A stretch of DNA of 64,000 nucleotides from NCBI GenBank assembly GCA_016875395.1, contig VGRF01000021.1, forward strand, positions 1-64,000, given 5' to 3'. This stretch comes from Deltaproteobacteria bacterium (GTDB taxonomy: Bacteria > Myxococcota_A > UBA9160 > UBA6930). Of the stretch, positions 41,832-47,366 are shown in pieces (position 1 is the first letter of the stretch; each line of letters opens with the position of its first letter). The position numbers were made by a program, and so were the translations under genes. The notes under the pieces were generated by a model. It was not told the origin of the DNA. It did not search any database and worked only from the letters and a program-made list of their open reading frames with translations.

Positions 41832-41934
41832 CCTGCAACTTTGCGGCAACGTGACGGCGCGCACAGGGCAGGAGCCGCCGTTGAATAGGCTCCGCCCTCC
41901 GGCGCGTCTCTACGCGCAGCAGGAGGTCGCGACC

Positions 41935-43161
41935 ATGCGCGGCTCGGTTCGCAAGCTGGCTCTCAGTGCTCTTCTGATTGGCGCCACCGGCGCGCTCTCG
42001 GCGTGCGTCGTCACGGGCGACTCGTACGGCCAGGGCGGCGGCTACTACGACGACGATTACGACTACCCGCCGCGCTCGCCGCGCCACGGCTACCGGCACT
42101 CCTACAACAGCGGCGTCACGCTGATCTTCGACTCGGGCCTCGGCCTCTACAGCGTGTTCGGGCATCCCGACTACTACTTCTACGACGGGTACTTCTACCG
42201 CTGGCACTCGGGCTACTGGAATCGCTCGCGCTACTGGAACCGGCGCTGGGAGCGCTGCGACTCGCGCTACTGGCCGCGGCCCGTGTACTACGTGAATAAC
42301 AACTACTACGTGCACGGCCGGCGCCCGCGCTACGACTGGGACAACGACCGACGCGATCATCGCGACCACCGCGATCGCGACCGGCGGCGCGACGACCGCG
42401 ATTGGCGCGACCGAGATCGCGGCGACCACGATCGCCGCGACCGGGATCGAGACTGGCGGGATCGCGACGGGCACGACCGGCGCGACGGCCCGCACGGCAG
42501 CCCGACGCCCGGCGGCCCGCCGGGCGACCGCGATCCCCGCGGCGACCGCGGCGAACCCCGAGAGCGCGGCGAACGTGGCGGCCACAACGGCTGGGAGGGA
42601 CGCGAGCGCCCGCAGCAAGGTCCGCCGGATGAGAGCGGCGAGGGCCGCCGCGAGCGCGGTGAGCCCGACATGGGTCGCGGCCGCGAGCGCCAAGAAGAGC
42701 GGCGCGACGAGCCCCAGCGCGAGCCGCGCGAAGAGCGCCGCGAGCGCGGACGTGGCCGCGACCGCGGCGAGCACGTCGACGCGGCCCCGCCGGGCTGGGC
42801 CGGGCGCGTCGCCGACGATGGCGCCTTCGAGCGTGCGCGGCGTGAGCAACGGGCGCGCGAGGTCGAGTCGCGCCGTGAGGGTGGGCGCGACGAGGCGCAG
42901 ATCGCCGCGCAGCGCGAAGCCGCGCGCGAGATGCGCGCGCAGCAAGCACGCGCGCACGCGGAGCGCGCGGCGATCGAGCAAGCCGCGCGCAATGCGCGCC
43001 GCGACGAGCGACCGCGCGACGACGGCTTCGAGCGCGCGCGGCGCGAAGAGAGCGCGCGCCCCGAGCCCCAGCGCGAAGCGCGCAGCGACGACGGCGGCGG
43101 ACGCGAACGCGCGCGCGAAGAGCACGGCGGTGGCCGGCGCGGGCGCGGCTGGGAGCGCTAG
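41935..43161 (+). CDS. Extremely Arg/Asp/Glu-rich repetitive lipoprotein
   Basis: A protein of 408 residues with three zones. A lipoprotein signal ends LSACVV. Residues of about 25-125 are Tyr/Gly/Trp-rich (YYDDDYDYPP, GHPDYYFYDGYFYRWHSGYW, YYVNNNYYV). The remainder is dominated by Arg, Asp, Glu and Gly in short imperfect repeats such as [19 protein letters not shown], passing into an Ala/Arg/Glu segment likely to be a long single helix. AGGAGG precedes ATG 41935. The composition implies a disordered, highly charged envelope or surface protein; its function cannot be read. Confidence 0.8.
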   Translation: MRGSVRKLALSALLIGATGALSACVVTGDSYGQGGGYYDDDYDYPPRSPRHGYRHSYNSGVTLIFDSGLGLYSVFGHPDYYFYDGYFYRWHSGYWNRSRYWNRRWERCDSRYWPRPVYYVNNNYYVHGRRPRYDWDNDRRDHRDHRDRDRRRDDRDWRDRDRGDHDRRDRDRDWRDRDGHDRRDGPHGSPTPGGPPGDRDPRGDRGEPRERGERGGHNGWEGRERPQQGPPDESGEGRRERGEPDMGRGRERQEERRDEPQREPREERRERGRGRDRGEHVDAAPPGWAGRVADDGAFERARREQRAREVESRREGGRDEAQIAAQREAAREMRAQQARAHAERAAIEQAARNARRDERPRDDGFERARREESARPEPQREARSDDGGGRERAREEHGGGRRGRGWER

Positions 43162-43190
43162 CCTCTGGCAATAACAACTCGAGGCGGCGC

Positions 43191-43412
43191 GTGAAGATCG
43201 AGATCGAGTACTGCGTTCGTTGAAACTATCTCGGTGAGGCCACCAGGCTGGCGGCCGCGATCGAGCGCGAGACGGGGACGAAGCCCACGCTGATTCGGGG
43301 CGATGGCGGCGTCTTCGAAGTCACCGCGGACGGCGCGCTCTTGTTCTCGAAGAAGAAGGCGGGCCGCTTCCCCACGGAAGCCGAGGTGCTGAAGGCGCTG
43401 CGTCAGTCGTGA
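43191..43412 (+). CDS. selW: SelW-type (Rdx family) selenoprotein with in-frame UGA
   Basis: From GTG 43191 the frame reads MKIEIEYCVR, then TGA (43221-43223), then NYLGEATRLAAAIE and on to a TGA stop at 43410-43412, giving 73 residues. Read as selenocysteine, the TGA completes the CxxU redox motif (Cys8, Sec11) exactly where SelW proteins carry it. The rest is a textbook Rdx protein (LIRGDGGVFEVTADGALLFSKKKAGRFPTEAEVLKAL). GAGG precedes the start. A candidate SECIS hairpin follows the TGA. Relatives are thioredoxin-fold proteins implicated in thiol redox reactions. It overlaps the convergent haem-protein gene by ten bases. Confidence 0.93.
43236..43258 (+). promoter_or_regulatory. Candidate bacterial SECIS hairpin
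   Basis: Just after the UGA the mRNA can fold as GGCC-A-CC, loop AGGCU, GG-C-GGCC (43238-43256), extended by a G-C pair below a mismatch. The loop begins 21 bases after the UGA and carries G in its second position, both within the range described for bacterial SECIS elements that recruit SelB. The fold was made by eye. Confidence 0.55.
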
Positions 43413-43876
43413 TGCGCCTCGTGTTCCTCGCCGCCTCCATCGCCTGAGCTCGCGCCGAAGCTCTGGCTCCACGCGCGCAGCACGGCCTTGTCCGCGTCGC
43501 TGAGCTTCGCTTCGGGATGCAGCAGCAAGTACGGCGGCAGCGGCATCTCGCCGTCTTCCACCTCTTCCCACATCTCGCGCGCGTTCTCCGCCTGCTTCTT
43601 GGCGGAGCGCTCACCCCAGGTCGAGAGATTCAGGTGCTCGCGGCCCTCGAGCGTGTCGTACACGACGAGCCACGAGGCCGGCGCGACGTACGCGTACCAG
43701 GGCCACTTCGTCGCGTGCGAGTGGCAGTTCATGCACGCGCGGTCGAGCACGGCCTGCAGCTCGGGCGGCGCGGCGAGCGGCGCCGTCGCCGGCGGATTCG
43801 TGCGCGGGATCGGAATCAGCTGAATCGCGATGAGCGCGACCGCAGCGCCGACCAAGAGCTTGCGACCTCTCGTCAT
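43403..43876 (-). CDS. Haem-binding domain protein (cytochrome c-like CxxCH)
   Basis: A protein of 157 residues. An N-terminal signal anchor (LLVGAAVALIAIQLIPIP) is followed by the haem site CMNCHSH, WPWYAYVAPASWLV, then EGREHLNLSTWGE and MPLPPYLLLHPEAKLSDADKAVLRAW, matching the small periplasmic haem-binding domain family. The C-terminus is Gly/Glu/His-rich. It is convergent with the selenoprotein gene, sharing ten bases. Confidence 0.88.
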   Translation of the reverse strand: MTRGRKLLVGAAVALIAIQLIPIPRTNPPATAPLAAPPELQAVLDRACMNCHSHATKWPWYAYVAPASWLVVYDTLEGREHLNLSTWGERSAKKQAENAREMWEEVEDGEMPLPPYLLLHPEAKLSDADKAVLRAWSQSFGASSGDGGGEEHEAHHD

Positions 43877-46659: not shown

Positions 46660-47094
46660 ATGCCGTTCACGACGCTCGCCTGGAAGCTGTGGGCGCTCTC
46701 GGTGCTCGCGCTCGCGCTGAAGATGCTCGTGCTGGCGCTCCTCACGAGCCGCCAGCGGCTCGCGAAGCGCGTGTTCGCGTCGCCCGAGGACTACGCGACG
46801 CAGGGCATGGCGGAGAAGCGCGAGCGCGATCCCGACGTCGAGCGCTATCGGCGCGCGCACCGCAACGACCTCGAGAACATCCTCCCGTTCTTCGTGGTCG
46901 GCGCGATCTACGCCGCGACGCAGCCGAGCGCGCTCGGCGCATGGCTCTGCCTGCCTGGCTTCGCGCTCGCGCGGGTGCTGCACACCGTGTTCTACCTGCG
47001 CGGCGCCATGCCGCATCGCACGCTCGCGTACGGGTACGCCTACTTCGCGACGCTCTGGATGATCCTCGCCTCGGCGTGGAGCCTCGTCGCATGA
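46660..47094 (+). CDS. MAPEG-family membrane protein
   Basis: A protein of 144 residues with four helices. The family signature ERYRRAHRNDLENILPFFVVGAIY binds glutathione-like thiols in relatives (membrane glutathione transferases, leukotriene and prostaglandin enzymes). It lies 11 bases after the LLM gene and overlaps the Rdx gene by four bases, tying it to thiol chemistry. Confidence 0.9.
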   Translation: MPFTTLAWKLWALSVLALALKMLVLALLTSRQRLAKRVFASPEDYATQGMAEKRERDPDVERYRRAHRNDLENILPFFVVGAIYAATQPSALGAWLCLPGFALARVLHTVFYLRGAMPHRTLAYGYAYFATLWMILASAWSLVA

Positions 47095-47366
47095 AGCCGC
47101 GCGTCAGCATCACGTACTGCGCGAAGTGCAGGTTCCTAACGCGCGCGGCGTGGATGGCGCAGGAGCTGCTGACGACGTTCGCGGACGAGCTCGGAGAAAT
47201 CGCGCTCGTGCCGGGCGATGGCGGCGTGTTTCAGGTGCGCGTCGCGGAGGAGCTGATCGCGTGCCGCGTGCGCGACGGCGGCTTCCCGGAGCTCGCGGAG
47301 CTGAAGCGCCGCATCCGAGACCGCGTGGCGCCGGGCCGCGAGCTCGGACACAGCGATCGCCCGTAA
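47091..47366 (+). CDS. SelT/SelW/SelH-like (Rdx) protein, cysteine form
   Basis: A protein of 91 residues. ITYCAKCRFLTRAAWMAQELL carries CxxC (Cys10, Cys13) where the selenoprotein at 43191 has CxxU; LVPGDGGVFQVRV and CRVRDGGFPELAELKRRI match the Rdx fold. The ATG overlaps the MAPEG stop (ATGA). The window thus holds a Sec and a Cys paralogue of the same redox family. The TAA stop lies inside a CGTAACAA motif. Confidence 0.9.
   Translation: MKPRVSITYCAKCRFLTRAAWMAQELLTTFADELGEIALVPGDGGVFQVRVAEELIACRVRDGGFPELAELKRRIRDRVAPGRELGHSDRP

Follow-up and report, generated by a model that had tools for sequence, protein, structure and literature searches.

Sequence evidence for a SelW-like selenoprotein gene with a conserved in-frame UGA and SECIS hairpin in a deltaproteobacterial genome

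In bacteria, the decoding of UGA as selenocysteine (Sec) by SelB and Sec-tRNA at a hairpin is well established. SelW-like proteins were the most abundant selenoprotein family both in the Sargasso Sea set (48 genes; PMC1088965) and in the GOS survey (427 genes; PMC2398784), and the bacterial versions are listed as high-confidence predictions (PMC13188914); their genes are often overlooked by annotation (PMC1088965, PMC4607533). The gene at positions 43191-43412 (+) of the window, i.e., the whole 64,000-nucleotide stretch of contig VGRF01000021.1 analyzed here, is an ordinary, well-supported member of this family, which has been described since at least 2005. It is best read as encoding a SelW-like (Rdx, PF10262) selenoprotein, with UGA specifying Sec, a reading to which a probability of roughly 0.97 is assigned. 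With the bacterial SelW-like selenoproteins already reported (PMC1088965, PMC2398784) it shares the family, the size, the CxxU motif, the in-frame UGA and a SECIS just 3' of it, and it differs from them only in the host lineage and in the exact motif, which is CVRU here and CGRU in some relatives of the same order. The SelW of Campylobacter and other epsilonproteobacteria (PMC4607533, NF041051) is likewise a Sec form of Rdx that annotation often misses; however, against the corresponding NCBIfam equivalog, the Campylobacter-type seleno model NF041051 (SelTWH_Campy), the window protein scores 81.1 bits, below the cut-off of 88. Eukaryotic selenoprotein W (2npb) also belongs to the Rdx family and carries CxxU, but its SECIS lies in the 3' UTR and its sequence match to the window protein is weak (E 0.7). 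The locus provides sequence-level confirmation of a gene type that ordinary gene calling tends to lose, in an organism that very probably uses UGA to encode selenocysteine.

The gene starts with GTG, at the same codon as the start (ATG or GTG) of its aligned relatives, and direct reading of the sequence reveals a possible Shine-Dalgarno site, GAGG, 6 nt 5' of the GTG (43181-43184, +). With UGA translated as Sec, the frame yields a product of 73 residues (VKIEIEYCVRUNYLGEATRLAAAIERETGTKPTLIRGDGGVFEVTADGALLFSKKKAGRFPTEAEVLKALRQS), in which the redox motif CVRU occupies residues 8-11, near the N-terminus, and Sec is residue 11, such that the UGA at 43221-43223 (+) corresponds to the second catalytic position of CxxC/CxxU. 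The read-through protein is recovered by the Pfam Rdx model PF10262 (2.6e-19, 69.6 bits against a cut-off of 22.6, positions 1-73 of 74) and by NCBIfam TIGR02174 SelT/SelW/SelH (57.3 bits, cut-off 34.2), and its membership in the Rdx family is already evident from the sequence. Among proteins of solved structure, 2fa8 (Atu0228) and 2ljk (C17orf37) are both clear relatives; several SelW-related bacterial proteins and the above-mentioned, weakly matching 2npb complete the picture. The translation and the PF10262 match uphold what a sequence-only reading of this stretch had proposed, namely these coordinates and this frame, with CVR-TGA-NY at the CxxU position between two halves of Rdx sequence.

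A second Rdx-family gene with an ordinary CxxC (CAKC) and no Sec (47091-47366, +; PF10262 1.9e-26) lies 3.7 kb from the Sec-form gene. Its proximity lends some plausibility to a scenario in which the UGA is a true stop, the first gene being a decayed Rdx pseudogene or the result of a sequencing or assembly error, with the CxxC paralogue doing the work. Inspection of an alignment of 31 Rdx genes, nearly all from distinct genomes and six of them from a separate collection, renders this scenario extremely improbable: the same codon is TGA, never TAA or TAG, in all 31 genes, the same hairpin follows it and covaries, and the downstream frames are intact. This conservation was the ground for rejecting a pseudogene, an error of sequencing or a change of code, and a search for relatives with a normal stop or a frameshift found none. 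Additionally, the two codons directly 3' of the TGA are AAY TAY (Asn-Tyr) in 30 of the 31 genes.

The alignment with SelW proteins that had been suggested as a check places the Sec or Cys of the SelW/Rdx homologues at the UGA codon, in keeping with a Sec-encoding UGA. Cys takes the place of Sec in the paralogue at 47091-47366 and in a set of Rdx genes from the relatives; going by scores, these Cys-type genes look like subfamilies separate from the Sec type. By a count of the listed entries, 60 of 80 genomes from this order carry an Rdx gene that contains TGA in frame, as do 28 of 41 related genomes, the own genome included. A contig scan also uncovered homologues of the Sec form in MAGs whose labels read Acidobacteria, Alphaproteobacteria, Proteobacteria, Planctomycetes and Phycisphaerales. 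The presence of SelA (37 of the 41 relatives) is poorly matched to that of the TGA-containing Rdx gene (28 of 41), as is expected if other selenoproteins exist, and co-occurrence is therefore not used as an argument.

On the strength of its fold, its covariation and a covariance search of the own genome, the hairpin downstream of the UGA is a bacterial SECIS, as the sequence-only reading had supposed. Its upper part spans 43238-43256 (+), with stems formed by 43238-43241/43253-43256 and 43243-43245/43249-43251, an A.C mismatch at 43242/43252 between them, and a three-nucleotide loop, GGC (43246-43248), closed by an A-U pair. The earlier description, of a hairpin with a G-bearing five-base loop starting 21 bases after the UGA, holds for the hairpin and for the G in its loop; however, it is the loop that begins 21-22 nt 3' of the UGA, whereas the stem begins 15 nt 3' of it, and five bases (AGGCU) are obtained only if the A-U pair is counted as open. 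A lower extension, pairing 43230-43235 with 43260-43265 (+), is predicted in the window sequence and is absent from the consensus fold of the relatives. A scan of the window at the Rfam gathering cut-offs returned only a tRNA; to our knowledge, Rfam holds no general bacterial SECIS family.

The published bSECIS model specifies a loop of 3-9 nt, an upper stem of 4-16 bp, a spacing of 16-37 nt and a G at loop position 1 or 2, with G or U as the usual next base (PMC13188914), and an MFE <= -7.5 kcal/mol serves as a further limit; compared with these constraints as stated, the hairpin falls within all of them, including the energy limit. In E. coli, U17 and G23 have been described as needed for SelB binding (PMC8659212). 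The window hairpin resembles the E. coli fdhF SECIS in having 3 bp between an interruption of the stem and a small loop bearing the key G. It differs in that the fdhF stem is interrupted by a bulged U, in place of which the window has the 1x1 mismatch 43242/43252, in its loop (GGC as opposed to GGUC), and in the distance of that loop from the UGA, which is about one codon greater.

The fold of the single sequence is modest evidence when taken alone: the 45 nt from 43221 to 43265 fold at -18.3 kcal/mol (z -2.0), and 7 of 200 shuffles fold equally well. The comparative evidence, on the other hand, is strong. Across 30 distinct sequences, 88% of the cells in the 43238-43256 hairpin are paired, as against 27-49% for slid versions, compensatory double-sided changes are seen at five of its eight pairs, and the covariation score is reached by none of 500 shuffles, a control that ignores the kinship of the sequences. 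RNAalifold recovers the core of the hairpin unprompted, and the column 43242/43252 is mismatched in 17 of the 30 sequences, the window included. Further, the loop G is invariant in the aligned genes (31/31), the next base is U in 29 of them, and the loop codon is AGT, GGT or CGT in the same number (29/31). The rest of these genes have only about 10% T at third codon positions, and AGT accounts for just 2 of their 74 Ser codons elsewhere, a disparity by virtue of which the choice of T-ending loop codons most likely reflects a constraint at the RNA level. The compensatory changes in the 31 aligned SECIS elements and their codon bias, for which such a constraint is the best explanation, constitute clear comparative support.

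The window and one relative (L041) depart from this pattern in carrying AGG (Arg) as the loop codon, which gives GG in lieu of GU and a GGC loop. As GU is found in the other 29 homologues and in E. coli fdhF, it could be argued that Sec is inserted poorly here and that most of the product is truncated. Such a scenario is a variant of the selenoprotein reading, with which its confidence overlaps, and it appears unlikely: the published consensus permits G[G|U] (PMC13188914), and AGG is seldom used for Arg in this organism (5 of 146 Arg codons in the sampled own genes), hence the loop letters themselves look selected. In the covariance search of the own genome, the hairpin ranks first, scoring 49.2 bits where the next match has 16.2, in a model that includes the window sequence. 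No second clear SECIS emerged below it, a result that says little regarding other families as the model carries SelW-specific codons around the UGA.

The sequence-only reading had predicted that the organism possesses selA, selB, selC and selD, and all four were found in its genome, which is 96% complete; a search for a lack of selB or selC thus came up empty. SelB is a protein of 643 aa, with a GTPase domain and two SelB winged-helix (SECIS-binding) domains; tRNA-Sec (selC) scores 71.3 bits and has a UCA anticodon; SelA scores 515 bits. SelD (262 bits) is an Ndh-SelD fusion (L049 283-2511) with an N-terminal pyridine-nucleotide disulphide oxidoreductase and with Cys (CGGC) rather than Sec; this fusion type has already been described from marine metagenomes (PMC2398784).

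The own genome was sampled for in-frame TGA in the Rdx, Fdh-alpha, AhpC-TSA and CMD families and in SelD. TGA codons were recovered in five AhpC-TSA (Prx-like) and two CMD (AhpD/CMD-like) genes (L085-L091, on contigs C29, C3, C1 and C9), in all seven at or beside the expected catalytic Cys (W-U-GC twice, FG-U-xxCR twice, DW-U-PF, CGF-U and CDT-U). The formate dehydrogenase-like matches of this genome lack TGA, and none of them reaches the Fdh-alpha cut-off. With SelW included, this partial sampling of families points to a selenoprotein-rich genome with at least eight likely selenoproteins. The sole mildly unusual aspect emerges from comparison with a 2006 survey in which every bacterial selenoproteome contained FdhA or SelD (PMC1794560), whereas neither the sampled FdhA-like genes nor the SelD gene of this genome has Sec. 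It is an evenly balanced proposition, from the families sampled in the own genome, that the order as a whole is a selenoprotein-rich lineage in which small thiol-redox selenoproteins (SelW, Prx-like, AhpD/CMD-like), in place of a Sec-containing FdhA or SelD, account for the Sec trait.

These observations also bear on the notion that an ordinary amino acid is inserted at the UGA, be it Trp as in code 4 or the result of near-cognate read-through. The frame would indeed be open under any sense reading. However, the Rdx homologues have Cys, and not Trp, at the aligned position, the gene's own terminal stop (43410-43412) is also TGA, TGA occurs only at specific redox Cys sites with most of the searched family members lacking it, and tRNA-Sec, SelA, SelB and SelD are all present. 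Decoding as an ordinary amino acid is hence most improbable.

If the UGA is indeed read as Sec, SelD would supply the selenophosphate that SelA would use to make Sec-tRNA-Sec, and SelB together with Sec-tRNA-Sec would bind the hairpin at 43238-43256, such that the ribosome, as suggested by the conserved anatomy of the locus, would read 43221-43223 as selenocysteine. The product would be a small protein with a predicted thioredoxin-like Rdx fold, probably functioning through its CVRU motif as a thiol/selenol oxidoreductase.

The surroundings of the gene offer two further observations. Upstream lies an open frame (41851-43161, +) whose 436 aa include a high share of Arg, Asp, Glu and Gly and which has no Pfam match, while the long frame opposite to it is probably a high-GC artefact. 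Downstream, a convergent Haem_bd (PF14376) cytochrome-like gene (43403-43876, -), with a CxxCH-like motif, CMNCH, overlaps the final 10 bases of the selenoprotein gene.
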